From Bdellovibrio reynosensis (GTDB lineage: Bacteria > Bdellovibrionota > Bdellovibrionia > Bdellovibrionales > Bdellovibrionaceae), in contig NZ_CP093442.1 of the NCBI RefSeq assembly GCF_022814725.1, forward strand, positions 2,170,001 through 2,234,000: 64,000 nucleotides of DNA. Direction: 5' to 3'. Shown one piece after another: positions 8,984 to 36,261 of the stretch. The first letter of the stretch is position 1; every line of letters begins with the position of its first letter. A model generated the notes under the pieces. That model ran no database searches, was not told where the DNA came from, and saw only the letters and a program-made list of their open reading frames with translations. The position numbers and the translations under genes were made by a program.

Positions 8984-9106
8984 GGCCGATCAAAAAGGTT
9001 CAGATGCAAGGCGGAGGATCTTTCGCGAAACGCAGGCGTGCTGGTAGCACGTCGGAGAGAAGCGAAAGACCGCACAACGCAGTCAGATGGGCCTTTTTCA
9101 GCGGCC
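8984..9106 (+). repeat. Structured dispersed repeat, copy A
   Basis: One of three ~123-base elements in the window, all in the same orientation. It folds into one long interrupted hairpin: outer GGCCG/CGGCC (8984-8988 with 9102-9106), then an A-rich arm paired with GGGCCTTTTT, a CTTTCGC/GCGAAAG stem (9020-9026 with 9062-9068), and an apical GTGCT/AGCAC stem with a three-base loop (9038-9050). Unpaired conserved blocks include GCAAGGCGGAGG, TCGGAGAGAAG and ACAACGCAGTC. It fills the leuS-speA gap and ends just before the speA ribosome binding site, so it could act as a terminator, attenuator or leader. Repeat and fold are directly visible; function is unknown. Confidence 0.9.
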
Positions 9107-9120
9107 GGCGGAGTGAAGAG

Positions 9121-11025
9121 ATGTCAAATTGGTCTCCTGAAAAAAGCGCAGAGTTGTACGGCATTAACAACTGGGGTAACGGCTACTTCAGAATCAATAG
9201 CGCTGGAAATGTTTCAGTAACTCCGATGGGAGCTGAAGGCCCTGCTGTTGACCTTCACGAATTGACACAAGATCTTTTAGACCGCGGCATCCGCGTTCCT
9301 ATCATGATCCGCTTTCCTGACATTATTAAATCCCGCGTGGAGCTTTTAAACGGCTGCTTTAAAAAAGCATTCGCTGACCACGGTTACAAAGGGAACTACA
9401 ACGGCGTTTACCCAATTAAGGTGAACCAACAACGCCACCTTGTTCAAGAGCTTGTAAAATACGGTAAAGACTACAACATGGGTCTTGAGTGCGGTTCTAA
9501 ACCTGAACTTCTAGTGGTTCTGGCTTTGATGACTTCGCCAAACTCTTTGATCATCTGTAACGGCTTTAAAGATACTGAATACATTGAGACTGCGATTCTT
9601 TCTCAAAAGCTAGGCCGTAACACGATCATCGTTGTCGACCGTCGCGAAGAGCTTAAAATGATCGTCGATGCGGCGAAGAAGTTTAACACTCGTCCAAAAA
9701 TCGGTTTCCGCGCAAAACTTAATACGCAAGGTGCTGGTAAATGGGTTGATTCTTCAGGTGCCCGTTCTAAGTTCGGTTTGACGGCTCCAGAGATCGTTGA
9801 GGGTGTTGAATATCTTAAAGCTGAAGGCATGTTAGATTGCCTTGAGCTGATGCACTATCACATCGGTTCACAGGTTCCAGCTATCCAAAGCATTAAGTCT
9901 TCTTTAAAAGAAGGCGCACGCTTTTATACTGAGCTTTACAAAATGGGCGCGGGCCTTAAATACATCGACGTGGGTGGCGGTTTAGGTATCGACTACGACG
10001 GTTCTGGTCACTCTGACAGCTCTGTGAACTATTCAGCACAAGAATACGCAAACGACATCGTGTCTGTGTTGCAAACTCTTTGTGATGAAAAAGGCATTCC
10101 ACATCCAAACATCGTGACTGAGTCTGGCCGCTTCCTAGTAGCCCATCACTCAGTCCTTGTGTTTAACGTACTTGGTATTAACGATCTTCATCGTCATGAG
10201 CCGCCTCGTCCTGCGACGAAAAGCGATCCAGCGATCATGCAAGATCTTCAGTACATCTTTGAAAAAGTAAATAAAGATAACATCAACGAGTGTTTCAATG
10301 ACTTAGAACAAGCTAAGCAAGAAACCCTGCAGTTATTCACTTACGGCGTTCTTTCACTAGAACAACGCGCGTGGTGTGAAAGCATGTACTTCACTGTCGC
10401 AACTAAGATGGTGAAACTTGCTAAGACGGTTCCTGATACTGAAGATATCATCGCGGCCCTTTCTAAAGAGCTTTGCGATACCTTCTATTCAAACTTCTCT
10501 TTATTCCAGTCGCTTCCAGATTCTTGGGCGGTAGGACAACTATTCCCAGTGACTCCGATTCATCGCTTGGGCGAAGAGCCTGTGCGTGAAGGTACACTAG
10601 CTGACTTAACTTGTGACTCTGACGGTGTGATTGAAAAGTTCATCGATACAGAGACAGGCGAACCAAAAGAGACAGTTCGTTTGCATTCGTTTGTTGATGG
10701 CGAGCAGTACTACTTAGGCGTGTTCTTAACAGGCGCTTACCAAGAGATCCTAGGTGACCTTCATAACTTGTTCGGAGATACAGACGCCGTTCATATTTCT
10801 TTAAGCAACGTGGGCTACACTATTGATCACTACGTACCGGGCGATACAGTAACGGAAGTTCTATCTTATGTTCAGTACGGCCGCTCTGAAATGGTTGATA
10901 ACGTTCGCCAAGCAACTGAAGACAGCATCCAAAAGGGCTCAATCACAAAACAAGAAGCAAAACTTCTGATTAAGCACTACGAAGAAGGCTTATCTGGTTA
11001 CACATACCTGGAAGAAGCTGAGTAA
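9121..11025 (+). CDS. speA: Biosynthetic arginine decarboxylase
   Basis: A 634-residue PLP enzyme converting arginine to agmatine and CO2, the first step of the agmatine route to putrescine. The PLP-lysine motif is GVYPIKVNQQ near residue 95; the family blocks GLECGSKPEL, DVGGGLGIDYDG and TESGRFLVAHHS follow, and length matches SpeA. I start at the ATG at 9121, preceded by GGAG at 9110-9113. The open frame runs upstream to 9004, but that extension is only translated repeat copy A and is not protein-like. A strong terminator follows at 11046. An agmatinase-family gene lies 4.4 kb downstream on the same strand. Confidence 0.95.
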   Translation: MSNWSPEKSAELYGINNWGNGYFRINSAGNVSVTPMGAEGPAVDLHELTQDLLDRGIRVPIMIRFPDIIKSRVELLNGCFKKAFADHGYKGNYNGVYPIKVNQQRHLVQELVKYGKDYNMGLECGSKPELLVVLALMTSPNSLIICNGFKDTEYIETAILSQKLGRNTIIVVDRREELKMIVDAAKKFNTRPKIGFRAKLNTQGAGKWVDSSGARSKFGLTAPEIVEGVEYLKAEGMLDCLELMHYHIGSQVPAIQSIKSSLKEGARFYTELYKMGAGLKYIDVGGGLGIDYDGSGHSDSSVNYSAQEYANDIVSVLQTLCDEKGIPHPNIVTESGRFLVAHHSVLVFNVLGINDLHRHEPPRPATKSDPAIMQDLQYIFEKVNKDNINECFNDLEQAKQETLQLFTYGVLSLEQRAWCESMYFTVATKMVKLAKTVPDTEDIIAALSKELCDTFYSNFSLFQSLPDSWAVGQLFPVTPIHRLGEEPVREGTLADLTCDSDGVIEKFIDTETGEPKETVRLHSFVDGEQYYLGVFLTGAYQEILGDLHNLFGDTDAVHISLSNVGYTIDHYVPGDTVTEVLSYVQYGRSEMVDNVRQATEDSIQKGSITKQEAKLLIKHYEEGLSGYTYLEEAE

Positions 11026-11045
11026 TAATAGAAAGATTCAAAATA

Positions 11046-11083
11046 AAAAAAAGAGGATGGCCAAAACCATCCTCTTTTTTTTA
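11046..11083 (+). terminator. Rho-independent terminator of speA
   Basis: An AAGAGGATGG / CCATCCTCTT stem with a short CAAAA-type loop, flanked by an A-tract on the left and followed by eight Ts. It starts about 20 bases after the speA stop. The A-tract would let it work in reverse as well. Confidence 0.9.
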
Positions 11084-11474
11084 TCCATATAGAGCATGTA
11101 AGAGTAAGAGCTAAAGAAAAACATCACCTTCTTATAAAACCTCCCCAACCAACAACTTAGGCGAATCAAAAAGGTCCATATGCAAGGCGGAGGATCCTTC
11201 GCGAAGCGGAGGCGTGGCAGCGCCACGTCGGAGAGAAGCGAAGGACCGCACAACGCAGTCAGATGGGCCTTTTTCATTCGCCGCCGAAGCGTGTGAGGTG
11301 CAGCTTGAGAATGTATATAAGAATGACAAAAACATTCCTAGCTTCAAGCAACTCACAAAAGACCTAACCACAATCAACCTCCAGAACCTTTCCTTAAGAA
11401 AAATCTTACGAGGCAATTGTAAATCAATTGTGAAGAGACCAGAGACTTATCAAATTAGGACAGAAATTTTAGAT
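11084..11474. other. Intergenic stretch containing repeat copy B
   Basis: About 390 bases between the speA terminator and the terminator of the peptide permease operon. Apart from repeat copy B I see nothing supported. Several open frames cross it on both strands, but they begin or run inside the repeat and lack ribosome binding sites. A small CAATTG-TAAAT-CAATTG palindrome lies near 11417-11435. Confidence 0.5.
11160..11282 (+). repeat. Structured dispersed repeat, copy B
   Basis: Second copy of the element. Outer stem GGCGAA/TTCGCC (11160-11165 with 11277-11282); middle stem TCCTTCGC/GCGAAGGA (11195-11202 with 11238-11245); apical stem GTGGC/GCCAC (11214-11218 with 11222-11226). Each differs from copy A by paired changes that keep the stem, for example GTGCT/AGCAC becoming GTGGC/GCCAC. 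It lies downstream of the speA terminator, so it is not needed to end speA. No gene is obviously served by it. Confidence 0.9.
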
Positions 11475-11506
11475 AAAAAAAAGGGACCTTGATGGTCCCT
11501 TTTGCT
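11475..11506 (-). terminator. Terminator of the peptide permease operon
   Basis: On the minus strand a GGGACC / GGTCCC stem with a five-base loop is followed by a T-run. It lies 16 bases past the stop of the yejE-like gene. Confidence 0.85.
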
Positions 11507-11522
11507 TTGTAAGTCTTTACGA

Positions 11523-12551
11523 CTACATTTTCGCGTCGAAAGCGTCTCGAACTGCGATACCGATGTTGATTAATAAAATTAAAGTCACAAATAGCGCTGT
11601 CATCGGACCCCACACCAACCACTCAGCGATGGTGAACCATTTCTGAGCTTGGGACATCAATTCACCCCATGACGGAGTCGGAGGTGTTAAACCAAGACCC
11701 AAGTAATCAAGCATAGAAAGCGTGTACACGTTTCCAGAGATTACGAACGGAGAGAACGTGATGATCGGAGTTAAACCATTCGGCAAGATATGCTTAGCGA
11801 TAATACGTTTGTGATCAGCACCGATGGCTTTCGCCGCTTCCACGTATTCACGTTTACGCAAAGAAAGGAACTGCGCACGCATGTAAGCAGAAATCCCTGT
11901 CCAAGCAAAACACGCATAGAATGCAACTAGCATTGGTAATGACGGAGTAAAGATCGAAATCATAGTGATCAATACGAACATGATTGGCGTACTTTCAACG
12001 ATCTCTACGATACGTTGCCCAACAAGGTCCGTTTTACCACCCAAGTAACCCATCAAAGAACCAAGCATGATACCGATAGCGTAAGCTAGTAACCACGCAC
12101 CCAATGCAAAAAGCATTGTGTAACGGAATCCGTAAAGAAGACGGGTCATAACGTCACGACCACTTTCATCTGTACCGATCCAGTTTTGCTTCGTTGGCGG
12201 AGACGGATAAGTTTCAACGGTTTTATTGCTTTCGTAAGCGTCCCATTGAATCACTGGCCAGATAGCCCAGTCATCTTCGCCCAACTCAAGCTCACGATAA
12301 TCCATCACGTAGATATCATCGCGACCGAAATCAGTCGGGTGATAATCTTTAACTAGAGGGAAGTACAACTCCCCTTTGTATTTTAATACGTGCGGATGGT
12401 TGTTCGCCCATAATTCAGCGGTGAAGCTAAAGAAGAACATAACCAATAATACCCATACAGAGATAACTGCTGCGCGGTCTCTTTTGAAGCGGCGGTAACG
12501 CTTAAGGGTAAGTTCATTTTTAATAAGGTATTTTTGAATTGGATCCATCAT
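11523..12551 (-). CDS. yejE: Oligopeptide ABC transporter permease, YejE type
   Basis: A 342-residue inner-membrane permease. It matches the YejE branch of the OppC/DppC group by its long periplasmic loop after the first helix (ELWANNHP...ELYFPLVKDYHPTDFG), the PSPPTKQNWIGTDESGRDV block, the ATPase-contacting EAA loop (YVEAAKAIGADHKRIIAKHILPN) and the ending AVRDAFDAK. Its start overlaps the yejB-like stop by four bases (ATGA). With the yejB-like protein and the binding protein it imports peptides. The ATP-binding yejF gene is not adjacent, so the ATPase must be encoded elsewhere. Confidence 0.9.
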   Translation of the reverse strand: MMDPIQKYLIKNELTLKRYRRFKRDRAAVISVWVLLVMFFFSFTAELWANNHPHVLKYKGELYFPLVKDYHPTDFGRDDIYVMDYRELELGEDDWAIWPVIQWDAYESNKTVETYPSPPTKQNWIGTDESGRDVMTRLLYGFRYTMLFALGAWLLAYAIGIMLGSLMGYLGGKTDLVGQRIVEIVESTPIMFVLITMISIFTPSLPMLVAFYACFAWTGISAYMRAQFLSLRKREYVEAAKAIGADHKRIIAKHILPNGLTPIITFSPFVISGNVYTLSMLDYLGLGLTPPTPSWGELMSQAQKWFTIAEWLVWGPMTALFVTLILLINIGIAVRDAFDAKM

Positions 12552-13603
12552 TTGAAATCAATCCTTGGATCAATAAGAACGTAAATGATGTCGCTGAAAA
12601 TACGGCCGAACATCAAAAGCATTGAAGAAATAAATGTCAGACCCATGATCACGTTATAATCGCGGGAAAGAACTGATTGGTAACCAAGTAAGCCGATACC
12701 ATCCAAGTTAAACATTTGCTCGATAATCAAAGAACCCGCTAGGAAGGCACCGAAGAAGCCGCCCAAACCAGTAGCGATCGGAATCAAAGCATTACGAAGA
12801 GCATGTTTAAAGATAACGATTCTTTCAGATAAACCCTTCGCGCGTGCAGTGCGAACGAAGTCAGACTTAATCACGTCCAACATAGAGTTTCTCATAAGAA
12901 CAGAAAGCTCTGTGAAACCACCGATCATATAACAGATCAAAGGCAGTACGAAGTGATGCAAACGGTCTGTGATTTTTCCCCAGGTTGTGAAGGATTCATA
13001 ATCATCAGATTGCAAACCACCCAGTGGGAAAAGATTCAATTTACCCGCAAGCACAACGATTAGGAAGATACCTAAAATCAATGGCGGGATTGAATAAGTG
13101 AAGTTCAGAATTAATGTAGTAATACGATCATAAGCGCCACCCGCCTTGATCGCTTTTTGCACCCCAAGCGGGATACAAACCAGGTAAGTCAAAAGTAACG
13201 AAGCAATACCGAATTGCAAAGAGACTGGGAATTTACTTTTGATTACGTCAATAACCGGTTCTTGGTAAGTGAAAGATTCACCAAAATCCAAACGGCTTAG
13301 GTTTTTTAACCAGATGAAGTAACGCTCATGAAGTGGTTTATCAAAGCCATATTGCTTTTTTAAAGCTTCGATAACTTCTTCATTTACAGAGGTATCACCA
13401 CGGCTGTTCACACCGGCCGCTCCCCCACCGCCGCCACCGCCTGCAGAACCAAATCGGATGGCTTGCAGCTTTTGCTCGATAGGGCTTCCTGGAGCTAGGT
13501 TAATAAGCACAAAGGTAACAAGGGTGATCCCGAAGAAAGTGGGGATCATTAATAGCAGTCGGCGAATCAAATAAACGATCAAAGCCTTATCTCCCAATAA
13601 CAA
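12548..13603 (-). CDS. yejB: Oligopeptide ABC transporter permease, YejB type
   Basis: A 351-residue permease with about six transmembrane helices, beginning YLIRRLLLMIPTFFGITL and continuing VNLAPGSPIEQ, as in YejB/OppB. The EAA loop is VRTARAKGLSERIVIFKHALRNALIP. A run of glycines (about residues 54-61) and a following charged segment form a longer periplasmic loop of the kind seen in YejB. It is coupled to yejE by an ATGA overlap. A hairpin separates it from the binding-protein gene upstream, probably lowering permease expression relative to the binding protein. Confidence 0.9.
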   Translation of the reverse strand: MLLGDKALIVYLIRRLLLMIPTFFGITLVTFVLINLAPGSPIEQKLQAIRFGSAGGGGGGGAAGVNSRGDTSVNEEVIEALKKQYGFDKPLHERYFIWLKNLSRLDFGESFTYQEPVIDVIKSKFPVSLQFGIASLLLTYLVCIPLGVQKAIKAGGAYDRITTLILNFTYSIPPLILGIFLIVVLAGKLNLFPLGGLQSDDYESFTTWGKITDRLHHFVLPLICYMIGGFTELSVLMRNSMLDVIKSDFVRTARAKGLSERIVIFKHALRNALIPIATGLGGFFGAFLAGSLIIEQMFNLDGIGLLGYQSVLSRDYNVIMGLTFISSMLLMFGRIFSDIIYVLIDPRIDFK

Positions 13604-13629
13604 AAAACTGAGACACTATCCTGAAACGC

Positions 13630-13655
13630 AAAACAGCCGGGTGCCCGGCTGTTTT
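13630..13655 (-). terminator. Intercistronic hairpin (attenuator) within the peptide operon
   Basis: A near-perfect inverted repeat, AAAACAGCCGG / CCGGCTGTTTT with a four-base loop, lies between the binding-protein gene and the yejB-like permease. The last Ts sit in the stem. It could be a partial terminator, or a 3' stabiliser that keeps binding-protein mRNA abundant. Confidence 0.75.
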
Positions 13656-13676
13656 GAACAGTAAAAGAGGCACTCA

Positions 13677-15302
13677 CTATTGAGCTGGTTTCATCCACCA
13701 GTAGTCTGTACCAATTTCGTACTTAAATGTCTCGCCAGGAGTTCCGATGCGTGAAGAATTTGCATAGAATACATACCTGTCGTTGAATAGGAATGCATAT
13801 GGAGCGTCTTCAGCGATCTTTTTGTAAACTTCTTTCAGTTTCGCGATACGTTTAGCTTTGTTCGGCTCAACGCGAGCGTCGTCGATAAGTTTGTCTACTT
13901 CTGGGTTTTTGTAAGCGATGAAGTTAGATCCACCAGCTACCGCACCAGAAGAGTGCCAGATTTGTTTTGGATCTGGTTCAACAGAACCGCCACCCCACGC
14001 CATAGTCACAGCGTCGAAGTTACCTTCATCAACAAGTTTCAAGAATGAATTCCACTCTAGATACTTAAGTTCCATGTCGATACCGGCTTTTTTCAAGTCT
14101 TCGCGGTACATAGTCCAATATTTCTCTACGTCTTTATTTGGGTAGATCAATGTGAACTTGAATTCTTGTTTTTTGCCGCCAGCAGTTTTTTCTAGAACAC
14201 CATTTTTATCAGTGTCAGTCCAACCAGCTTTACCCAAAAGCTCTTGAGCTTTTTTCGGATTGAATTCTAAAGCCTTATTACCAGGATTGAATTCAGAACG
14301 GATGTAAACAGCACCGTTAGCAAGATCAGACATGCCGTAACGGAACTTTTTGTTCATCTCTTCGCGGTTTAGTAAGTGCGCCAAAGCAACACGTACGTTT
14401 TTGTCCTGGAAAAGTTCTTTACGGAAGTTCCAGCCGATGAAACCGTAAGACTTCGGAGCGCTGTTTTGAACTTTGTGTTTAAGAACTGTTTTGCCCCAAG
14501 GAGCGCCTTCAGTTTTCTTCATGAAAGCTTCGATACGTAGATCGATGTAATCCAATTCACCTTTTTTAGCGCGCTCAAGCTGAACGTTTTCATCTTTATA
14601 GAAACGCATAGTGATTGAATCAAAGTTGTAAGTCCCTTTGTAAACGGCGTCGTTGTTACCCCACCATTTGTCGTTTTTCTTCAATGTGATTAATTGACCA
14701 CGATCGAATTTTTGCAAAACGTAAGGACCAGAACAGATAAGCTGTCTGTTCATTTTTTTAGATTTTTCAACATCGCTGTAAACGTGTTTTGGAATTACAG
14801 TCAAAGTCGCAGCAGATTCGAAGTTTTTGAAATACAAATCTTTAGCTGTGAATTTGATAGTGTGAGCGTCGATAACTTCCGCTTTAGCCAAACCTTCGTA
14901 ATATGGACGAAGGTGAGCAGCTTCGTATTTTGGTTCAAAGATAGCGTCAAAAGAGAATTTAACGTCTTCAGCAGTTACAGGTTTGCCGTCATGGAAAACA
15001 GCATTTTTACGAAGGAAGAATGTGAAAGTTTTGTTGTCTTTGGAGATTTCCCATTTTTCAGCCAAACGTGGCTTCCAATCGTAGGTCTCAGAGTCACGAG
15101 TTACTAAGCCTTCGCACACGTAGTTTTGTACGTCACGGCTGTAAGCATCTGTGCTTGTGATCGGATGAACTGTCGGTGGCTCGCCACCTAAGTTGATTAC
15201 GAAATTTCCGCCTTTAGGTGCAGACGCATTTGGTGCAGTTGCAAAAGCGGGAGCGGTCAAAGCTGAGCTCAAGAGTAGAGCCAGGATTCCCTTCATATTC
15301 AT
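13677..15302 (-). CDS. Peptide ABC transporter substrate-binding protein
   Basis: A 541-residue periplasmic protein of the SBP_bac_5 (OppA/YejA) family. The signal peptide runs to about residue 22 (ends APAFA). Family blocks include GGEPPTVHPITSTDAYSRDV, WKPRLAEKWEISKDNKTFTF, FHDGKPVTAEDVKFSFDAI and a C-terminal DAPYAFLFNDRYVF. GGAGG six bases before the ATG supports the start. It is the first gene of a three-gene operon with two permeases and is separated from them by a hairpin. Peptide uptake suits an organism that digests prey protein. Confidence 0.92.
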   Translation of the reverse strand: MNMKGILALLLSSALTAPAFATAPNASAPKGGNFVINLGGEPPTVHPITSTDAYSRDVQNYVCEGLVTRDSETYDWKPRLAEKWEISKDNKTFTFFLRKNAVFHDGKPVTAEDVKFSFDAIFEPKYEAAHLRPYYEGLAKAEVIDAHTIKFTAKDLYFKNFESAATLTVIPKHVYSDVEKSKKMNRQLICSGPYVLQKFDRGQLITLKKNDKWWGNNDAVYKGTYNFDSITMRFYKDENVQLERAKKGELDYIDLRIEAFMKKTEGAPWGKTVLKHKVQNSAPKSYGFIGWNFRKELFQDKNVRVALAHLLNREEMNKKFRYGMSDLANGAVYIRSEFNPGNKALEFNPKKAQELLGKAGWTDTDKNGVLEKTAGGKKQEFKFTLIYPNKDVEKYWTMYREDLKKAGIDMELKYLEWNSFLKLVDEGNFDAVTMAWGGGSVEPDPKQIWHSSGAVAGGSNFIAYKNPEVDKLIDDARVEPNKAKRIAKLKEVYKKIAEDAPYAFLFNDRYVFYANSSRIGTPGETFKYEIGTDYWWMKPAQ

Positions 15303-15448
15303 TGTTATCCTCCAAAGAATTTCGCTGGGAATTTAAGTAGTTCCCAAAGTGGGGTTAAAATCGGTTATGGTTGAAAAATAATCAAGTTATTGCTCGATTG
15401 ACGCCACGCTTAAATGATATATACCCTAGGCTTTTCAAGGAGAAAACT

Positions 15449-16504
15449 ATGTCTGAAAAGACGGTGAAATTCGATCCCACAACAACCATTTCTGCCGAGT
15501 ACGGGATCTTCGGCATTCCCATGTCTGAAGAAGAATCAAAAGTGGTTCTTGTGCCTGTTCCTTGGGAGGTTACAACTTCTTACGGCGAGGGCGCTTCGAA
15601 TGGTCCTCAGATCATCCGCCAAGCCAGTGAACAGATTGACCTTTTTGATATCGAAGTTGGTAAGGCCTACGAAGTCGGCTACCATATGCGCGACTTCCCA
15701 GAAGACCTTAAGCGCATGAACGATAAATACAAAGCAGTTGCGCAAGAAATTATCGAAATGAAAACTAATTTGAGCGAAGACGAAGCCAAGATGAAAACCT
15801 TGTCTGCTCAAGTGAACGAAGCTTGTGAAGAAATGACTCAATGGGTTTATGACCAATGTTCTGATGTACTTAAAAAAGGCAAACTTTTAGGCCTGGTTGG
15901 TGGCGACCACTCGACCCCGCTTGGCGCCATCCGCGCAGTAAGTGAAAAGTACAAGGGCGAGTTCGGCGTATTGCACATTGATGCCCATGCAGATTTGCGT
16001 GTTGCTTATCAAGGCTTTAAACAATCCCACGCATCGATCATGTACAACGTCATGACGGATGCTAAGAAACCTAAGAAGTTGGTTCAAGTCGGTATCCGTG
16101 ATTTCTGCGAAGAAGAATATGACTTCAGCGAATCACGCGAAGACATCAAAACTTTTTATGATCTAGAACTTAAGCGCCGCCTGCTTAAAGGTGAAACGTG
16201 GGAAAAAGTTTGCCAAGACATCATCAAAGAACTTCCACAAAATGTTTATATCTCTTTTGATATCGATGGTCTTGATCCAGTTTACTGCCCGCACACTGGA
16301 ACTCCAGTGCCAGGTGGTTTGACAGTTGATCAGATCTTCTTCTTATTCCGCGAAGTGCATAATTCAGGTCGCAAGATCATTGCTTTTGACTTGAACGAAG
16401 TATCAACCGGCGGACTTGATCCACATGAAGTGGAATGGGATGGAAACGTCGGCGCGCGCATTCTTTATAAAATGTGCGGATGGTTGGTAAAAAGCCATGC
16501 TTAA
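15449..16504 (+). CDS. Agmatinase/arginase-family ureohydrolase
   Basis: A 351-residue binuclear manganese hydrolase. Metal-ligand motifs are GGDHSTPLGAI, HIDAHADLR and SFDIDGLDP. AAGGAG at 15437-15442 fixes the ATG at 15449; the frame is open further upstream without a start signal. A helical, Lys/Glu-rich insertion (about residues 85-135) makes it longer than typical SpeB. The nearby arginine decarboxylase makes agmatine, so agmatinase (agmatine to putrescine plus urea) is the best guess. Formiminoglutamase and guanidinobutyrase are alternatives that sequence alone cannot exclude. Its stop overlaps the start of the next gene. Confidence 0.85.
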   Translation: MSEKTVKFDPTTTISAEYGIFGIPMSEEESKVVLVPVPWEVTTSYGEGASNGPQIIRQASEQIDLFDIEVGKAYEVGYHMRDFPEDLKRMNDKYKAVAQEIIEMKTNLSEDEAKMKTLSAQVNEACEEMTQWVYDQCSDVLKKGKLLGLVGGDHSTPLGAIRAVSEKYKGEFGVLHIDAHADLRVAYQGFKQSHASIMYNVMTDAKKPKKLVQVGIRDFCEEEYDFSESREDIKTFYDLELKRRLLKGETWEKVCQDIIKELPQNVYISFDIDGLDPVYCPHTGTPVPGGLTVDQIFFLFREVHNSGRKIIAFDLNEVSTGGLDPHEVEWDGNVGARILYKMCGWLVKSHA

Positions 16505-16856
16505 GGTTTACGAGTACGCGAAGTGTTCTACTTGTGTGAAGGCGCTTAAATATTTAGACGCAAAAAAAGTGAAGTACGAAAAACTTCCGATCGTCGATAA
16601 GGCACCATCACAAAAAGAATTAAAAGAAATGCTTGCCGCTTTAAAAGATAAAGGTGGCAGCATTAAAAATCTTTTTAATACTTCTGGTGTTATGTACAAA
16701 GAACTGAAGATGAGCGAAAAGCTGCCGTCTATGTCAGAGGCAGAAGCTATCAAACTTTTGTCTGAGCATGGAAAGTTAGTGAAGCGTCCGTTTGTGATTG
16801 GAGATAACACTCACCTTGTGGGTTTTAAAGAAGATGAATGGAAAAAGGTTTTCTAA
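16497..16856 (+). CDS. ArsC/Spx-family protein (YffB-like)
   Basis: A 119-residue thioredoxin-fold protein starting LKVYEYAKCSTCVKALKYL, with the CxxC at the ArsC active-site position, and a C-terminal KRPFVIGDN block where the family has RP(V/I). It could be an arsenate-reductase-like or glutathione-dependent thiol reductase, or a regulator. It overlaps the agmatinase-family gene by eight bases, so the two are translationally coupled. Its stop overlaps the convergent membrane-protein gene by four bases. Confidence 0.8.
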   Translation: MLKVYEYAKCSTCVKALKYLDAKKVKYEKLPIVDKAPSQKELKEMLAALKDKGGSIKNLFNTSGVMYKELKMSEKLPSMSEAEAIKLLSEHGKLVKRPFVIGDNTHLVGFKEDEWKKVF

Positions 16857-17212
16857 ATTAATCCTTGCGGGCTTTGAATAAAAACAAAGCCCCAAGCTAG
16901 TACCAAAAGAAATTCAACGACAGCATCCCCCAAGTAAACCTTAGAAATAACTTTTTTTGAGACATAGTACACATCGATAATTCCTAAGATAAAAGCATCC
17001 AGCACCGCTAGTGCGATAATTTCTTTTGTGATACTACCAAAGGCTGCCATCAGCATAACAATCGCACTGATTGTGATAAGCCATCCTACAGTGACCACCA
17101 GCCACTTATCAGTTTTAGAGCCAGTGAGTTTCAAAAATGATTTCAGGTGAATAACGGGCCAAAGACCCGTTATCAAATAAAATACCGATTGAAAAACCAG
17201 CAGGCTTTTCAT
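16853..17212 (-). CDS. Small inner-membrane protein, four predicted helices
   Basis: A 119-residue hydrophobic protein with about four transmembrane segments (around residues 4-22, 37-57, 63-82, 95-113). No family is recognised. It overlaps the upstream small gene by four bases (ATGA), indicating translational coupling, and it is convergent with the ArsC-like gene. Confidence 0.7.
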   Translation of the reverse strand: MKSLLVFQSVFYLITGLWPVIHLKSFLKLTGSKTDKWLVVTVGWLITISAIVMLMAAFGSITKEIIALAVLDAFILGIIDVYYVSKKVISKVYLGDAVVEFLLVLAWGFVFIQSPQGLI

Positions 17213-17412: not shown

Positions 17413-17544
17413 AAAAGCCTCCTGTCACCAGTTATTTTACTCTAGATTATTCGCCTCCCCTATTGCGATTTCTCACCGCTTGCCAGGCGGCAAAGTCTAT
17501 GAATGTAACTGGGATTAATATCAGAGCTGATTCAAAATCTAAGA

Positions 17545-18694: not shown

Positions 18695-18726
18695 GGGCAG
18701 GAAACTCAATGTAGGAAAGGATTTGC

Positions 18727-26409: not shown

Positions 26410-26418
26410 GAGACGAAA

Positions 26419-29199: not shown

Positions 29200-29206
29200 C
29201 AAAATT

Positions 29207-29238
29207 AAAAAGGCCAAGTTAAAACTTGGCCTTTTTTT
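29207..29238. terminator. Bidirectional terminator
   Basis: AAGGCCAAGTT / AACTTGGCCTT with flanking A- and T-tracts between the convergent lipoprotein and acyltransferase genes. The T-tract contains the stop codon of the acyltransferase gene on the other strand. Confidence 0.9.
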
Positions 29239-30112
29239 ATTGGTTTTCATCCATTTTATATTTTCGCCATAAACTGCGATTCAAATCATCTCTTTGCAAG
29301 ATGGTTAAGAAATCGATGCAGTTAAATTCTTGGTCCCAAGCTGGTTCCCCGCTGATGGAAGCACCCGCTTTCAAATAAGCGCGACATAAAGGCGGGACAA
29401 GACTTTCCGCTTCCGCTCTCTGAGTCTCCGTGAGAGGGTCGCGTATTTCGTCCATAAACTGATGTAATAAAGGCATTGTAAATAAAAGTGTTGGCCTTGT
29501 TCTGAACTCTTGCAGAATACGACCTTCTTCTTCAAAGTAACGTGTTAACAGTGCGGCCTTGCGCGGATCTGCTGTCATGACCGTCGCACAACCGAAAACA
29601 AGTTTCGCATCTGAAGCTGCCATATATTCAGCAATTCCACGCCATAGTAAAGAAATCAGAATACCACGGCGGAAATCCTTATGAATACAAGCTCTGCCAA
29701 GTTCTAATTTGACCCCTGGTTGAGCGAAAAGTTTACCGATCATAAACTCTTTTCCAGAATAAAACTTTTCTGTGAATAAAGAACAGTTCAAACGATAAGT
29801 ACCGACGATGCGGTTACTGCGCTTTTCTTTGATGACTAAGTGGTCGCAGGCAAAATCGAACTCGTCGACATCAATACCTTCTGGATTTGTTTTTCCCATC
29901 ATCTCGCGATGAAAAACTTCGTACCTTAAGGCTAAAGCTTCTTTTAGTTCTTCGCTGTCAGAAACAGTTTTTAGTTCAAAGGGGCCGACCTCAAGCTTTA
30001 TATCAATCTTCGCTTTAAACTTATGGATGCGGTTAAGACGAAGTTGATAGAAAGACTGAAGGTTCATTGAAACTCGTTCAAGACTTACAGCGGCTGCTAA
30101 GGAGCTAATCAT
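29237..30112 (-). CDS. OlsB-like GNAT acyltransferase
   Basis: A 291-residue protein of the GNAT/hemolysin-like acyltransferase group, which includes OlsB (acyl-ACP to ornithine, first step of ornithine-lipid synthesis). Seen: LRYEVFHREMM, DEFDFACDHLVI, VGTYRL, the GNAT core KLELGRACIHKDFRRGILI, and the C-terminal RAYLKAGASISGEPAWDQEFNCIDFLTIL that marks this subfamily. It is monocistronic. A PlsC-type acyltransferase that could play OlsA is at 19830-20666, but the two are not linked. Exact substrate is not certain. Confidence 0.82.
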   Translation of the reverse strand: MISSLAAAVSLERVSMNLQSFYQLRLNRIHKFKAKIDIKLEVGPFELKTVSDSEELKEALALRYEVFHREMMGKTNPEGIDVDEFDFACDHLVIKEKRSNRIVGTYRLNCSLFTEKFYSGKEFMIGKLFAQPGVKLELGRACIHKDFRRGILISLLWRGIAEYMAASDAKLVFGCATVMTADPRKAALLTRYFEEEGRILQEFRTRPTLLFTMPLLHQFMDEIRDPLTETQRAEAESLVPPLCRAYLKAGASISGEPAWDQEFNCIDFLTILQRDDLNRSLWRKYKMDENQ

Positions 30113-30214
30113 AAGCGGTCCCCCCTTGATAGTTAAGATTCTATCGGGAACCCCGTGTTAAGGTTGTTAGAAGCTTCTTAAGATATTGTTTTGCCGTCTT
30201 AACAAAAAACGAAC

Positions 30215-31228
30215 TTAAACGATTAAAGAGGCCGCTTTATTCAAGCGATCAAATAAAGATTCCCAGCGTTCGCCCACTTGCTGGGAGGTGCGGTAAAATA
30301 AGATGCAGTCTTTTCCTTGCAAGGCAACTTCGCGAAGTTTTCCATAAAACTCGCGGGTCGCTAATAAAGGATCGTTTGAAAGCTTGAGAACAGAATGGCT
30401 ATGAATGCCCCCGGCAGGTTTGATAATTTTGATACTTTCAATTTCATCTGGAAGCTCGCCAAGCTTTTCATTTACTTCTTTAAGAATGCTTTCAGCAGAA
30501 CGGTGTTCTTCTGTACAAACGATCAATGGGACCGGTGGCATATAATGATGTTTCATATGGCCTGGAGATTCGCGTTTATCTATCTTTTCGATAAATTCAA
30601 ACGTGAAACCCTTATCTGAAAGGACTCTTTCGATATCAGACTTAAGAACGAAGCCGCGTCTTAGGATTGATAGCTCGACCTTTTCTGGGCGGTGACGAAC
30701 CAACAACACAGTTGATTCAATACCAATATCACAGTCCCCACCATCAACCACAAACACATCTTCTTTTTTAAATTCGGTGCGCACGTGGGAAGCTGAAGTT
30801 GGCGAGGTTCTTCCGAACTTGTTAGCACTTGGTGCTGCTAGTGGAACCCCAACTTGCTGAAGGATTTCTAATGCCAACGGATGATTGGGCATCCTGATTC
30901 CCACATTGTCTAATCCTGAGGTGATCATCAAATTTATTGAGGGATCTCTTGGTAAGATCAAAGTCAATGGGCCTGGCCAGAATGTTTCTGCTAAAGCTTG
31001 GGACGCCGGTCCCCAGTACGCAGTGACTTTCTTAGCTTGTTCAATAGAAGCCACATGGACAATCAATGGATCAAAGAACGGGCGTTCTTTAGTGATAAAA
31101 ATCTTTTCAATGGCTGCGGGTATATCGATACGAGCCGCCAGGCCATAAACTGTTTCTGTAGGGAAGCCAATGACTCCCCCTTCATCCAGAATGTTTTTGG
31201 CTTTTGTTAAGGCCTCGTTCACCGTCAT
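30215..31228 (-). CDS. sua5: L-threonylcarbamoyladenylate synthase, Sua5 type
   Basis: A 337-residue enzyme forming threonylcarbamoyl-AMP for the t6A modification of ANN-decoding tRNAs. An N-terminal YrdC domain (GGVIGFPTETVYGLAA, KERPFFDPLIVHV, GPLTLIL, GIRMPNHP, APSANKFGRTSPTSASHV) is joined by a linker to the C-terminal Sua5 domain (SPGMKHHYMPPVPL). This is the longer Sua5 form rather than the short TsaC. Its start overlaps the end of the YbbP-like permease gene, so it is the last gene of the tesA-ybbA-ybbP unit. Confidence 0.92.
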   Translation of the reverse strand: MTVNEALTKAKNILDEGGVIGFPTETVYGLAARIDIPAAIEKIFITKERPFFDPLIVHVASIEQAKKVTAYWGPASQALAETFWPGPLTLILPRDPSINLMITSGLDNVGIRMPNHPLALEILQQVGVPLAAPSANKFGRTSPTSASHVRTEFKKEDVFVVDGGDCDIGIESTVLLVRHRPEKVELSILRRGFVLKSDIERVLSDKGFTFEFIEKIDKRESPGHMKHHYMPPVPLIVCTEEHRSAESILKEVNEKLGELPDEIESIKIIKPAGGIHSHSVLKLSNDPLLATREFYGKLREVALQGKDCILFYRTSQQVGERWESLFDRLNKAASLIV

Positions 31229-33771
31229 TATTTTTCCTCGCGCAGAACACCCAATGCACTTTCTTTTACAATATCCAGGCTTGCAAGGAAAGAAATCAAT
31301 AAACTAAATGCAGTGATGATAAGAACTGATACCAGTGGTTGAGCCCAAGAAAGCTTAAAGTCACTTTCAAAAATAAAGGTATTCAGCGAAAAACTCACAA
31401 TAATGCTAAGTAACGACCCGGTTAAAGCAGCTAAAAAAGCTAAGAAAGCGAATTCAGCAAGAATGAAGCTTGCGACTTCACTCCAAGATGCACCCAGGAT
31501 TTTTAGCATGTTCAGTTCCCAACGACGCAACTTAATCTGACTGCGCACGATCGAAAACAGCACGATATAGCCAGTCACCAAAGCTAACGCTGCCATTAAT
31601 TCAAGGGACCAACTCATTTTTTCTGCAGTTTTTAGAACTTCATCCACAGTTCGAACTACATCGACAACAGATATGTTTGAAAACTGTGATGCGATTTCGT
31701 TCTGTAACTGGGTTCTTTTAGCATCCGGTAAGGATGGAATAGCTGTGATAAATGTTTTCGGCGCTTCGTCCAAGACGCCCGGCTGAACCAAGATAAAGAA
31801 ATTGGGCTGAAAGCTTGTCCACTTTACTTTACGAAGGTTCACGATCTCGCCTTCAACTTCAACACCTTGCACATCAAACACAATGCGATCGCCGATCTTA
31901 AATCCCATGCGTTCAGCAAATCTGTATTCAACTGAAAGTTCGGCAGGCTTATCGGGATCGGCGTAAGGACCGCTGATCGGCCTGCCATCGGTGATTGTTT
32001 CTGAAGTCGAAAGATCCGTACGGTACGAAAGATTCACACCGCGATTGCGGAAGCGCGCTTCGCGTTCTTCTTCACGGGTTTTGAAGCCTTGAGTTTCAAT
32101 CTTTCTTTCATAGTCCATGCCGTTCACTTTTAAAATTCGCGCACGAATCAAAGGCGAAACTGCTAAAGGTTGAACCTGGTTTTTCGCAAGGGTTTGCTGG
32201 ACCCCATCCATCTGCTCGCTTTGAATATCAAACATAAATAGCGATGGAATTTTACTTCTGCCTTCGGTTTGGAATTCCGCCTGCAGGGAATTTTTTAATT
32301 GCGGAAGGATATTGATTAATAGCGCTCCCAAGCCTAAGGCAACAAAAATGGCAAGACTTGCCCCGGCTCTGCGGGAAAGACTTAAGAAGCTAAATTTAAA
32401 AAACCAGCGGTTAAACCCTTTTATCAATCCAGCCAACTTCACGGTTAAATATCCAATCGCCAGAAGACTTAAGATCACAGCGATCATTGATGCTGTGAAG
32501 ATGCTTCCTGTCTTAATGGAATTAGCCTGATTGATAGCTAAGAAGTAAAATAGAAGTAATGAGGGAAGGAATGGCCAAATACGTTTTGGTCCCTCACCCA
32601 CTGAAAACTTTTCTTCGCTAAATAGTTTTGCCGCTTTTAAGTCGAATATCTTAACCAGGAACGGAAGACTAACCACGAAGCTGCCGAACACTGCGGTGAT
32701 GATACAAATTAATAAAGCTTCTGCGCTGATCTGTGGTTGCAAATCAAATGGTGTGAAAGAATTTAGAAGTTTGCTTAAAAACGGCAGTAACAAATAGCTA
32801 AACACCACTGTAGGAATTGTGGCTAACAAACCTAAAAGCGATGCTTGAATAATATAGACACTTACTGCCTGCACACTTTGCAGGCCTAACGTACGAAGGA
32901 TCGCAATTTCTTTCATCCGGGTTGATAAGAACAATCTATATAGGTAAGCAGCCCCCAAAGCCGACATGAATAACGCAATGATAGCCACTAAACCTAAATA
33001 GTCAGATAGATAACCTAGCTGGCGGCCCGAGTCCTCTCCTGCTGAAGATGGGGTATCAATATTGATCGCAGGATCAGGCAACACCTTATAAAGGTCTTCG
33101 CGAACTACATCTGATTGGCCTTGTTCTGGAAGTTTGAATAAGTGAGCCGCCGTAAAGGTACTGCCAAATTGAATTAGACCTGACTGGGGCAATAGCTCGC
33201 GGTTCACAAATACTCGCGGAGCCAGGGTCAAAGCACGGAAAGTTTGCGTGGCATCCTTTTTTACCAGATCCGCAACTTTTAAATTCAGGTTTCCAATTTT
33301 AATTTCATCGCCTACATCGATTCCAACTTGGGATTTTAATTCTGGATAAATCCATGCTGTTTCAGAAGTCAGAATTTCTTTTTCAGATTGTGCATGAATG
33401 GTTTTTCCGGATTGCAGCTCCATTTCGCCATAAAAGGGATAACCCTTATCAATGGCCTTCACTAAAACAAGTCGCGACCCTTTGCTAGAATTCATCATCG
33501 CAAAGAATTCATAGACCTTAGAATCTTGAGTTCCAGCAGGAACGGCCGCCTTCATCTTAGCCACTTCATCTTCATTCAGCTCACGTCGCGCCGACACGGC
33601 TAAATCCGCTGATAAGATGGCCTGGGCATTTGCTTTAATCTGATTTTCTAAAGCCTGATTAAAAGCCTCTAAAGTAACAAAGCCAGTTAAACCCAAGCTT
33701 AAGTTAAATATAAAAAATAAACCAAAACTCCAGCTGCGGCGAAGTTCACGTAAGGCCAGTCGCAATAGCAT
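31228..33771 (-). CDS. ybbP: ABC transporter permease, FtsX/YbbP family
   Basis: An 847-residue inner-membrane protein with about ten transmembrane helices in the YbbP layout: one N-terminal helix (residues ~16-36), a large periplasmic domain, a cluster near residues 245-390 with the FtsX core MKEIAILRTLGLQ, and a C-terminal cluster with RRWELNMLKILGASWSEV. It forms a type VII (mechanotransmission-type) exporter with the adjacent ATPase. The last gene in the unit, sua5, overlaps its stop. In E. coli ybbP, ybbA and tesA are also neighbours. Confidence 0.88.
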   Translation of the reverse strand: MLLRLALRELRRSWSFGLFFIFNLSLGLTGFVTLEAFNQALENQIKANAQAILSADLAVSARRELNEDEVAKMKAAVPAGTQDSKVYEFFAMMNSSKGSRLVLVKAIDKGYPFYGEMELQSGKTIHAQSEKEILTSETAWIYPELKSQVGIDVGDEIKIGNLNLKVADLVKKDATQTFRALTLAPRVFVNRELLPQSGLIQFGSTFTAAHLFKLPEQGQSDVVREDLYKVLPDPAINIDTPSSAGEDSGRQLGYLSDYLGLVAIIALFMSALGAAYLYRLFLSTRMKEIAILRTLGLQSVQAVSVYIIQASLLGLLATIPTVVFSYLLLPFLSKLLNSFTPFDLQPQISAEALLICIITAVFGSFVVSLPFLVKIFDLKAAKLFSEEKFSVGEGPKRIWPFLPSLLLFYFLAINQANSIKTGSIFTASMIAVILSLLAIGYLTVKLAGLIKGFNRWFFKFSFLSLSRRAGASLAIFVALGLGALLINILPQLKNSLQAEFQTEGRSKIPSLFMFDIQSEQMDGVQQTLAKNQVQPLAVSPLIRARILKVNGMDYERKIETQGFKTREEEREARFRNRGVNLSYRTDLSTSETITDGRPISGPYADPDKPAELSVEYRFAERMGFKIGDRIVFDVQGVEVEGEIVNLRKVKWTSFQPNFFILVQPGVLDEAPKTFITAIPSLPDAKRTQLQNEIASQFSNISVVDVVRTVDEVLKTAEKMSWSLELMAALALVTGYIVLFSIVRSQIKLRRWELNMLKILGASWSEVASFILAEFAFLAFLAALTGSLLSIIVSFSLNTFIFESDFKLSWAQPLVSVLIITAFSLLISFLASLDIVKESALGVLREEK

Positions 33772-34436
33772 TAGATTTCCCTCAACTGACCTTCTTCAAG
33801 GCGTAAGTTTCGTTGGCAACGTTGCGCTAAAGCTTCACTATGGGTCACAAGAATGGTGGTGATTTCATGTTTGCGCACGATCTCGAAAAACACATCCATC
33901 ACTTTATCACCGGTGTGTGTATCTAAGTTCCCACTTGGTTCATCGGCTAAAAGAATTTTAGGTTTTACCACTAAAGCTCTAGCAATAGCGACACGCTGAC
34001 ATTCCCCGCCGCTTAATTGGCTTGGAAAATGATCCAAGCGATGTCCTAAGCCTAATTCTTTTAATGCGGCTTCAGCTTTTTCCCGTGTGTCATCCATCTT
34101 TAGAATTTCTAAAGACAGCATGACGTTTTCAAGCGCGGTTAAATGCGCAATCAGATGGTACTGTTGAAAAACGATGGCGATGTTTTGCGCTCTGAAGCTT
34201 GTGATTTCTTTTTCACTTAAGCCCACAAGATTTACGTTATCCACAAGAATTTCCCCAGAGTCAGCACGCTCTAATCCCGCTAAAAGCGATAGCAGCGTGG
34301 ATTTCCCGCTGCCTGACTGACCGACGATCGCGACAATTTGTCCTGGTTCAATATTGGTTTGCAGTCCCTTTAGAACTTCAATTTGCGAATCACCTTGCTG
34401 AAAACTTTTACGAACATTTTTTAGGATTAAACTCAT
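33771..34436 (-). CDS. ybbA: ABC transporter ATP-binding protein, YbbA/LolD type
   Basis: A 221-residue ATPase with Walker A GQSGSGKSTLL, Q-loop VFQQYHLI, signature LSGGECQRVAIARAL, Walker B ILLADEPSGNLD and H-loop VTHSEAL. It belongs to the MacB/LolD group that pairs with FtsX-family permeases. It overlaps both neighbours, with its stop at the start of the permease gene and its start at the end of tesA, which supports a single complex. Confidence 0.93.
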   Translation of the reverse strand: MSLILKNVRKSFQQGDSQIEVLKGLQTNIEPGQIVAIVGQSGSGKSTLLSLLAGLERADSGEILVDNVNLVGLSEKEITSFRAQNIAIVFQQYHLIAHLTALENVMLSLEILKMDDTREKAEAALKELGLGHRLDHFPSQLSGGECQRVAIARALVVKPKILLADEPSGNLDTHTGDKVMDVFFEIVRKHEITTILVTHSEALAQRCQRNLRLEEGQLREI

Positions 34437-35032
34437 AGGGCACTCTTCAAGGTTGAAAAAATAGTTTCAGCGATGATCTTATGGCCTTCTTCATTGGGAT
34501 GAATGCCATCAGCCAAATTGTATTTTGGATTGCCACCGACTTTTTCTAAAATGAATGGAATGAAAACAAGCTTGTACTTGGACGCCAAAGATTCATACAT
34601 CTTTTTGAATTGATCAGTATAAGCTTTTCCATAATTCGGTGGCATATACAGACCGCAAAGAATCACACGAACCTTTTCTTTTTGTGCGTATTCAATCGCC
34701 GCTGCCAGATTTTTCTGACTGTCTTCGATCTTTAAACCGCGCAGTCCGTCGTTGGCACCTAACGCTAAAAGCACGACATCAGGTTTCGATTTAAACAGCC
34801 ACTTCATTCGCGTAACGCCAGATGCAGTGGTTGAACCGCTAACGCCAGAGTTCACGACTTTCCATTCTTTTTTGCCGATTTCATGAAGCTTTTTTTCTAA
34901 AAGTGATGGGTAGGCAGCATCCTTGGCGACACCGTAGCCCTCCGTAATGGAATCACCCAACACGATCAATTTTTTTTCAGCGAATGCTAATGAGGAGAAA
35001 GTAAGAAGTATGAAAAATAAAAAAGGTCTCAT
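34433..35032 (-). CDS. tesA: SGNH-fold esterase/thioesterase, TesA-like
   Basis: A 199-residue periplasmic hydrolase. After a signal peptide (residues 1-18) come the SGNH blocks: LGDSITEGYG (Ser28), VNSGVSGSTT, LALGANDGLRG, and DGIHPNEEGH (Asp-His). It matches TesA/arylesterase. It heads the ybbA-ybbP-sua5 unit and overlaps ybbA by four bases. Its ATG lies inside the 3' arm of the terminator hairpin of the upstream RRM gene, and no ribosome binding site is visible, so translation may be limited or structure-controlled. I found no better start downstream. Confidence 0.9.
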   Translation of the reverse strand: MRPFLFFILLTFSSLAFAEKKLIVLGDSITEGYGVAKDAAYPSLLEKKLHEIGKKEWKVVNSGVSGSTTASGVTRMKWLFKSKPDVVLLALGANDGLRGLKIEDSQKNLAAAIEYAQKEKVRVILCGLYMPPNYGKAYTDQFKKMYESLASKYKLVFIPFILEKVGGNPKYNLADGIHPNEEGHKIIAETIFSTLKSAL

Positions 35033-35053
35033 AGGGTTACTATGAGACCTTTT
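35019..35053 (-). terminator. RRM-gene terminator overlapping the tesA start
   Basis: On the minus strand a perfect 13-base-pair stem, AAAAGGTCTCATA / TATGAGACCTTTT with a seven-base loop, is followed by more Ts. The 3' arm holds the tesA ATG and its next codons. It would end most transcripts from the RRM gene and would hide the tesA start in any read-through RNA. Confidence 0.85.
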
Positions 35054-35113
35054 GTTGTTTTCTAAAACAAGTCTGAACTCGTCACAAAAATCTGCGGAGT
35101 CCGAACAATGTAA

Positions 35114-35470
35114 TTAGCGCGGGCCGCGAGGACCACGATCGCCGCCGAAACCACCGCGACGAGGACCACCGCCATTGCGATCGCCACCGAAACCACCACG
35201 ACGTGGGCCACCTTCACGAGGAGCCTGTGGGCGAGCTTCAGATACATTGATTGGACGACCGTTCAATTCAACGCCGTTAGCTCTTTCGATAGCTTGATCA
35301 GCCGCAGAATCATCAGCCATTTCTACAAAGCCGAAGCCTTTAGAACGACCTGTTTCTCTGTCCATGATTACTTTCGCAGAGTCTACCGCTCCGAATTGAG
35401 CGAAGTGTTGATGAAGAGCTTCATCGTCTACTGAATAAGGCAAGTTGCCTACGTATAATTTCTTTGCCAC
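35114..35470 (-). CDS. RRM-domain RNA-binding protein
   Basis: A 118-residue protein with one RNA recognition motif: RNP2 KLYVGNLPYSV and RNP1 KGFGFVEM, followed by an Arg/Gly-rich tail with FGGDR repeats. Such small glycine-rich RRM proteins are often cold-induced RNA chaperones. I place the start at the GTG (35468-35470), five bases after a GGAGG (35476-35480); an upstream ATG at 35524 would put this strong site inside the gene and adds no conserved sequence. A terminator hairpin follows 60 bases downstream. Confidence 0.9.
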   Translation of the reverse strand: MAKKLYVGNLPYSVDDEALHQHFAQFGAVDSAKVIMDRETGRSKGFGFVEMADDSAADQAIERANGVELNGRPINVSEARPQAPREGGPRRGGFGGDRNGGGPRRGGFGGDRGPRGPR

Positions 35471-35603
35471 AAAGACCTCCTGTGGAATTTCTTTTAAAAA
35501 CCCGAGGAAGCCTTCGAACAACATAAAATCGAGAACACTCGCACGGGAAAACTTTTTACTGAATTTAGGCTAGCAACGGCCTAAATAGTGTGCAAGCCCA
35601 TTT

Positions 35604-36089
35604 TTACGGGCGCATATTATTATATTGTAAAGGAATAGAAAAGTTCCCACCACGTACAAGGCTGATACATTCCTGCAGCTCATCAATGCTTTTTGAGGAC
35701 ACTTTGATTTTATCGTCCGCAATTGCAGGCTGTACCTTTAGCTTAGAATCTTTAATTAATTTAATGATGTCTTTCGCGACTTCTTTCTCAATACCTTGAA
35801 CTAAAAGAACTTTTTGGCGCAGCATTCTGCCGCCGGCCTCTTCTTTTTTCTCAAATTTGATGGCTTTGATATCGATGCCGCGACGATGAAGTTTCGTTTG
35901 TAGAATCCCACCCATCGCTTCAACTTTATAATCATCTTCAGCTGTTAGGATAATTTCTTTTTTATCCCATTGAATTTCAGCTTTGCTGCCTTTGAAGTCA
36001 TAACGCCCTTCAACCTCTTTGCGGGCTTGGTTAACGGCATTATCAACTTCTTGAACATCAATCTCAGAAACAATATCAAACGATGGCAT
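35604..36089 (-). CDS. yajQ: YajQ-family nucleotide-binding protein
   Basis: A 161-residue protein of the YajQ (UPF0234) family: SFDIVSEIDVQEVDNAVNQA, YDFKGSKAEIQWD, and a C-terminal VSSKSIDELQECI. Members bind nucleic acids or, in Xanthomonas and Pseudomonas, cyclic di-GMP. The 48 bases beyond its start lead into repeat copy C, which separates it from the SlyD-like gene. Confidence 0.92.
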   Translation of the reverse strand: MPSFDIVSEIDVQEVDNAVNQARKEVEGRYDFKGSKAEIQWDKKEIILTAEDDYKVEAMGGILQTKLHRRGIDIKAIKFEKKEEAGGRMLRQKVLLVQGIEKEVAKDIIKLIKDSKLKVQPAIADDKIKVSSKSIDELQECISLVRGGNFSIPLQYNNMRP

Positions 36090-36136
36090 ATCAAAAAATC
36101 CTAAATATTTTTGAGAAAAAATAAACCGAAAATCAA

Positions 36137-36261
36137 GGGTGAGTCAAAAAGGTTCGGATGCAAGGCGGAGGGTTTTTTCCGCAACGGAGGCGTGCTGCTA
36201 GCACGTCGGAGAGAAGGAAAAAGCCCGACAACGCAGTCAGCCGGGCCTTTTTCACTCGCCC
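36137..36261 (+). repeat. Structured dispersed repeat, copy C
   Basis: Third copy. Outer stem GGGTGAG/CTCGCCC (36137-36143 with 36255-36261); middle stem GGGTTTTTTCC/GGAAAAAGCCC (36170-36180 with 36216-36226), quite different in sequence from copies A and B but fully paired; apical GTGCT/AGCAC (36192-36204). The conserved single-stranded blocks are kept. It begins two bases past the slyD-like stop and is antisense to both flanking genes (slyD-like, yajQ), unlike copy A, which is sense to its neighbours. Confidence 0.9.

Follow-up and report, generated by a model that had tools for sequence, protein, structure and literature searches.

Bacterial miniature inverted-repeat transposable elements (MITEs) are small, non-coding, multicopy sequences with inverted ends and direct repeats, and the attC sites of integrons are imperfect hairpins used as one DNA strand, which sit behind stop codons and for which the orientation relative to replication matters. 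Here we analyze three elements with traits of both, found in a stretch of 64,000 nucleotides of the Bdellovibrio reynosensis genome (contig NZ_CP093442.1, positions 2,170,001 to 2,234,000; henceforth the window). Elements A (8984 to 9106), B (11160 to 11282) and C (36137 to 36261), all on the + strand of the window, were singled out in a preliminary description as a family of nested hairpins with covarying stems, for which an RNA seemed to be selected. The reading that we favor, with a probability of roughly 0.57, is that they are old, retained members of a widespread family of small (~120-190 bp) non-autonomous mobile hairpins, in which the hairpin matters on one strand only.

The family is MITE-like in being short, dispersed and multicopy, in the inverted ends and 4-bp repeats of its members in other phyla, and in one recent burst of copies. 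Unlike MITEs, it has a long conserved hairpin at one end, strand-specific pairing, and an orientation tied to replication; and the copies in the B. reynosensis genome differ from MITEs in having no left end and no target repeat. The likeness to attC, drawn from the general description of those sites, lies in the imperfect hairpin, the position at stop codons and the replication orientation, but the neighbors of the window copies are leuS, arginine decarboxylase, oppC, FKBP and DUF520 genes, with no cassette array around them.

What we say of published work refers to the parts of the cited papers that were consulted. The repetitive extragenic palindromic (REP) sequences, together with BIME and REPIN and with the RAYT (TnpA-REP) enzyme, are, like this family, short high-copy extragenic palindromes, likely non-autonomous, that form a single-strand hairpin (PMC2817692, PMC6006769). 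The family here differs from them in its length of 120-190 bp with five helices, in lacking a constant GTAG foot, in a copy number that is untied to Y1 genes, and in the 4-bp repeats and inverted ends of its members in other phyla. For IS200/IS605 elements, insertion linked to replication is known (PMC6006769).

The closest account is from 2009, when a paper on Geobacter metallireducens presented a 24-copy family of "predicted short RNA elements" that have the palindrome GRCGTAGCGCTGCTACGCC at their center, and mentioned relatives in other Geobacter and in Desulfotalea (PMC2700814); a later paper treats multicopy sequences generally (PMC2996986). That family is likewise intergenic and multicopy with the same central palindrome, and so the family described here has already been seen in part, in Geobacter; the statement in the preliminary description that no account was known needs amending. 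The sections consulted of the 2009 account are without covarying nested stems, inverted ends, 4-bp repeats, docking at stop codons, replication orientation, or spread over phyla. Likewise, a literature search with the key strings and with Bdellovibrio, MITE and strand-orientation terms brought up, in the parts of the texts consulted, nothing on the family beyond the Geobacter papers, and its orientation, ends, docking and spread are undescribed there. The palindrome GRCGTAGCGCTGCTACGCC is found exact, on the other strand, in 8 of 77 B. reynosensis copies, and exact in 3/23 loci of a Geobacteraceae genome (G057) and in 1/59 rows from other phyla. In the B. reynosensis copies without an exact match, the apical stem varies in paired fashion.

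Covariation and strand-specific wobble

A pattern taken from the 3′ part of the three elements, allowing up to 3 mismatches, finds 31 places in the genome, of which 30 were fetched, and 26 of these were aligned to build the model R1 (four in which the middle part is absent or replaced were omitted). Searching the 3.58 Mb genome with R1 reports 80 matches at E ≤ 1, of which 77 were kept; the three removed are a reverse-strand shadow and two short, weak matches. The search, of a kind proposed in the preliminary description with a model of three copies, recovers a multicopy family with ~77 copies in this genome.

Covariation was evaluated with 69 distinct copies, taken from 74 matches that reach E ≤ 1e-12 within a set of 69 loci. 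Standard pairs make up 95.7% of the cells, and 28 of the 35 base pairs have changed on both sides, a number reached by 0/500 shuffles, while structures slid along the alignment give 14-21. The covariation score is 0.558, against 0.199 for shuffles and at most 0.119 for slid versions, and in the outer stem all seven pairs covary (7/7). This alignment was fitted to the model and is hence biased towards the structure; an earlier alignment with MAFFT gives 25/35 pairs. The internal loops are constant among the copies of this genome.

The wobble pairs are almost all on one strand, that of A, B and C as named here (the named strand): 223 cells are G-U and 11 are A-C, or 67 and 11 when four G-U-rich pairs are left out. 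The hairpin of this strand is the more stable one in 66/69 copies using RNA parameters, and in 67/69 using DNA parameters. What had been claimed from three copies, covarying stems and wobble confined to the + strand, thus extends (nearly so, in the case of the wobble) to the whole genome; neither an absence of excess covariation nor an even split of the wobble between strands was what we found. Mutational strand bias, considered as the cause of this skew, was rejected, as it should produce a skew in the opposite direction.

Mobility

That the family is mobile DNA is the firmest part of our interpretation. A genome of the Peptococcaceae (Firmicutes) has 28 copies; 20 of them were fetched, and 16 share an identical 107-nt core. 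The unit there is ~185 bp long and runs from TAG to TAG, with related inverted ends, and CTAG is found on the flanks of most copies; in 10/20, the target contains the TAG stop of a frame of at least 70 codons on one side. Across other phyla, a left-end candidate is present at a set distance in 46 of 112 matches (a set that leaves out three further Peptococcaceae copies), and of those 46 loci, 23 have a 4-bp direct repeat near the boundary, while a control with swapped flanks has a mean of 3.0 and a maximum of 8. The repeats include CTAG, TTAG, CTAA, AAAT, AGAT and others.

In the Geobacteraceae genome G057, five near-identical copies (L394, L395, L397, L398 and L404, out of 23) each lie between two copies of a terminator-like hairpin, with exact repeats of 14-30 nt, and L236 and L283 have similar duplicated hairpins on their flanks. 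In G057 the whole flanking hairpin is repeated, as if the target hairpin had been duplicated, which is atypical of transposons. A plasmid collection queried with one element from another phylum and a phage collection queried with element B gave no match.

Among the other genomes of the genus, 20 of 23 have R1 matches, with 3 to 45 copies each; outside it, the one genome from another genus of the family has none, and 4/14 others of the order have copies. The site of element C, behind the FKBP gene, could be compared at 23 loci of the genus. It is filled in 10, empty in 11 (one of these, in genome G001, includes what may be left of an element end), and taken by another small hairpin in 2. The ten orthologous C copies have 15 pairs with two-sided changes, where shuffles average 8.5, and an outer stem that is paired throughout (100%), although the 29 types of pair seen are no more than in shuffles (30.6). 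Pairing has thus been maintained at a single fixed position. This FKBP site is the one fixed site compared across species. In four of the orthologs (L172, L173, L178 and L179), by eye and on the gene strand, the second outer arm can alternatively pair with a third arm, followed by a T-rich stretch (GACCAAC..GTTGGTC), an arrangement that looks like a terminator mutually exclusive with the outer stem. In the congener G013 (L379-L388), many copies stand in same-orientation tandem pairs or trios with a period of ~125-138 bp.

Spread over phyla

A search for the constant blocks in other bacteria returns at least 121 matches in at least 119 stretches. The constancy of the blocks in that set is by construction. 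Of the 121 matches, 118 span 80-86 nt, though the pattern permitted 69-100. The groups among 80 titles listed are Deltaproteobacteria, Nitrospirae, Pseudomonas, Betaproteobacteria, Selenomonadales, Peptococcaceae, Bacteroidetes (Cryptobacteroides, Porphyromonadaceae), Chlorobiota, Chloroflexi, Gemmatimonadetes and Methylomirabilota. One architecture is thus present in at least nine phylum-level groups going by record title, where many titles are of metagenome bins, some groups are a single record, and mis-binning is possible. The 59 non-redundant rows from other phyla fold alike, with 24/31 pairs changed on both sides, 166 G-U and 29 A-C wobble cells, and a hairpin more stable on the named strand in 55/59 (DNA parameters). 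Ten genomes searched with a cross-phylum model have from 1 to at least 150 copies each.

Placement behind genes

The frames considered here are open reading frames called in the analysis, not annotated genes. For 54 of 75 classified B. reynosensis copies (two of the 77 are unclassified), the right-hand frame is on the opposite strand, and 30 of these 54 lie between convergent frames. The stop codon of a bottom-strand frame (open for at least 60 codons) falls between -20 and +12 nt from the right edge in 48/77 copies, using TAA in 24, TAG in 15 and TGA in 9. The arrangement recurs in other phyla: 94 of the 121 matches have sufficient flank, 76 have a bottom-strand frame within 200 nt, and 44 of these 76 place the stop at 15-29 nt from the core, in contrast to scattered left-side distances. 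At eight loci, from at least two phyla, the element lies against the end of purH: L193, L222, L241 and L250 (Pseudomonas), L198 (Pseudomonadaceae), L196 (Bacteroidetes), L284 and L301 (four of the eight identified by NCBIfam TIGR00355, the remainder by a similar C-terminus).

Orientation and replication

The orientation of the copies matches replication in 70/77 cases, with + copies from ~0.70 to 2.55 Mb and - copies elsewhere; the best of 2000 permutations reaches 61. The dnaA gene is at 2.535 Mb, and in 20 sampled stretches the skew switches sign at about 0.70 Mb and again around 2.4-2.54 Mb, being weak and uneven past 2.54 Mb. For four single-contig congeners, 137 of 141 copies fit one mid-genome switch (G013 45/45, G006 32/32, G012 29/31, G023 31/33, after dropping two reverse-strand shadows from each of G012 and G006), and dnaA is at the start of the genome or, in G023, at 28 kb. 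The Geobacteraceae genome G057 behaves alike: 22 of the 23 copies listed (27 were found) are oriented, with a switch at 2.6-2.7 of 4.3 Mb (0/5000 permutations), and its five near-identical copies, presumably recent, all follow the rule.

The sense is common to all six genomes, each a single contig: the named strand is the template of the leading strand, and what the lagging-strand template exposes is the strand with the weaker hairpin. In 103 matches from other phyla, the flanking coding is mostly on the bottom strand in 73, the same sense as the orientation rule. With 137/141 copies oriented by replication in four species, the family offers a natural record of the way in which mobile or hairpin DNA interacts with the fork.

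Interpretation and alternatives

How would a mobile hairpin come to have these properties? On the reading we favor, the conserved part is the long imperfect hairpin, whose outer arm would make one end of the unit, and the copies of this genome, which have neither a left inverted end nor a 4-bp repeat, would derive from units that have them. Insertions would survive at places of low harm, chiefly right behind stop codons, and because of this, one end would often abut the stop codon of an opposite-strand gene. The hairpin may act, or be counter-selected, as single-stranded DNA at the replication fork, and if that is the form under selection it would jointly account for the one-strand wobble and for the link to the fork. 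Orientation might be set by a transposition coupled to replication, a possibility suggested by the five oriented G057 copies; or it might arise by loss of copies in the opposite orientation, for which the unbiased Peptococcaceae copies speak.

Several results weigh against this reading. In the B. reynosensis genome a left inverted end is found, weakly, in 3/77 copies, and a 4-bp repeat at any fixed offset in at best 6/67 (null maximum 8). A limited search for an autonomous partner found none at the loci scanned for one end type and none at PF05598 loci in G046 or G041. The orientation rule does not reach significance when measured by the agreement of copies on the same contig (a weaker test, among the copies listed) in Geothermobacter (57 of 146 copies listed; 40/64 pairs, 377/5000), in a Selenomonadales genome (33 of at least 150 listed; 19/24 pairs, 525/5000), or in six other Geobacteraceae genomes pooled (127 copies listed; 49/81 pairs, 317/3000). 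The recent Peptococcaceae copies (n=23) have no gene-strand bias, with 45% of the flanking coding on the bottom strand. And in ten species a single locus shows compensatory change, which speaks for a function that has been retained and not for mere debris.

Does strong covariation then mean an RNA? A structured non-coding RNA, with the + strand transcribed and with paired stems and constant internal loops that bind a protein or another RNA, would fit the covariation, the wobble lying mostly on the named strand, and the constant loops among the copies of this genome, and a same-strand open frame upstream could read into 42 of the 75 classified copies. The other 33/75 have no such frame. The preliminary description took the wobble as a sign of a selected RNA of this orientation. 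The structured family and the upkeep of pairing on the named strand hold, but the selected molecule being RNA is not established, because G-T wobble holds in single-stranded DNA too. In 48/77 copies the named strand runs antisense to the open frame that abuts the element, and in 70/77 its transcription would run head-on to replication; a transcript is therefore not expected for many copies. On the + strand, scans with promoter consensus sequences report nothing promoter-like over the 84 nt leading up to A, the 137 nt leading up to C and, for B, the final 1.2 kb upstream. The single Rfam match in the whole window is a tRNA, no match above gathering score is found at eight element loci, and no hit in the sub-threshold listing spans A or B. 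With the inverted ends and 4-bp repeats of other phyla marking mobility as DNA, we find the RNA explanation rather unlikely, and the family an example of strong covariation that does not have to imply RNA. Less improbable, though still doubtful, is that the elements are two-way terminators or insulators of gene ends, in which an A-tract, hairpin and T-tract (AAAAAGG..CCTTTTT) halts RNA polymerase arriving from either side. This would explain both the adjacency to stop codons and the upkeep of the stems, and it agrees with the unbroken A-tract and T-tract at the stem of 43/77 copies, with the location behind stops and, for 30/75, between convergent frames, and with the duplicated terminator-like hairpins beside five copies in G057. 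Yet the tract is interrupted (GAGAA) in 28/77 copies, element C sits between two same-strand genes that in congeners without the element are, by eye, 5 to ~50 nt apart, and termination needs neither constant internal loops nor an orientation relative to replication. The terminator scan, which considers loops of 3-8 only and cannot judge these hairpins, flagged just small stems inside A and C.

The other two explanations concern DNA. A Y1 (RAYT-type) transposase might move the elements, as REP-like sequences, in the form of single-stranded DNA. They are high-copy extragenic hairpins, at 5/48 Y1 loci in this genus the element follows closely downstream on the same strand, a link between Y1 enzymes and the lagging strand is documented (PMC6006769), and the E. 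coli REP strand GATAAGgCG..CGcCGCATC (PMC2817692) resembles GATGCAAGGCG..CAACGCCGCAGATG. Those five loci amount, however, to ~3 independent ones owing to orthology; at E ≤ 0.001, PF01797 has no match in three genomes that carry 45, 19 and 6 copies; and the constant GTAG is absent at the foot, with 1/26 rows starting with GTAG. Moreover, 4-bp repeats occur in other phyla, and target repeats are not known from Y1 transposition. A Y1 transposase was rejected as the mobilizer, there being no link in copy number and a weak local one, and we judge this explanation improbable, a shade more so than an RNA. Finally, the elements might have no function at all, with the arms staying complementary by templated correction, a strand-dependent process in which replication copies one arm of a palindrome from the other. 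The arms do co-vary even between orthologous copies, and orientation tracks replication in six genomes, but such a process would perfect all stems, and yet the family retains wobbles at fixed positions and constant blocks of mismatches. It also leaves the 223 G-U against 11 A-C cells unexplained, and the C-to-T bias expected for the lagging-strand template should give the opposite skew. To us this is the least probable of the explanations.

The mobile hairpin that we favor can be taken further, as a tentative proposal that we consider possible but would not bet on: a pan-bacterial class with its own replication-coupled machinery, which would recognize the hairpin strand as single-stranded DNA, with new copies entering at gene ends (stop codons, or terminator hairpins that become duplicated) in one orientation that is set by the fork, and with selection on strand-specific pairing accounting for long retention in some hosts. 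Small repeats of this kind are usually overlooked in annotation.

The three window copies

The positions and strand of A, B and C are as first described, as are their outer, middle and apical stems. Each folds as one nested hairpin, with z-scores on the + strand of -5.4, -7.5 and -6.8 and 0/200 shuffles folding equally well; on the - strand the values are weaker, -4.4, -5.3 and -3.3. The constant blocks described as unpaired are so in part: some of their bases do pair, since the GCG of GCAAGGCGG and the CGC of CAACGC form helix 3, which is 94% paired.

Element A (140.3 bits with R1) lies between the leucyl-tRNA synthetase gene (stop at 8970-8972) and the arginine decarboxylase gene; its outer stem pairs GGCCG at 8984 to 8988 with CGGCC at 9102 to 9106. 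Element B, with 149.0 bits the top score of the genome, lies between the arginine decarboxylase gene (+ strand, stop at 11023-11025) and a gene for an OppC-type permease (- strand, stop at 11523), and pairs GGCGAA at 11160 to 11165 with TTCGCC at 11277-11282. Element C (140.5 bits) separates the genes for an FKBP-type isomerase and for a DUF520 protein, both on the - strand, and pairs GGGTGAG at 36137 to 36143 with CTCGCCC at 36255-36261; the TAA stop codon of the FKBP gene (36264 to 36266, - strand) is two bases past its 3′ end.

The ATG that starts the longest arginine decarboxylase frame, at 9004, falls within element A (window 9004-9123); the in-frame ATG at 9121, with a GGAG at 9110-9113, is the likelier start. 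On the - strand, a promoter-like site (9/12; window 36118-36147) begins inside element C with TTGACT, and it could serve the DUF520 gene, which the insertion splits from the FKBP gene.

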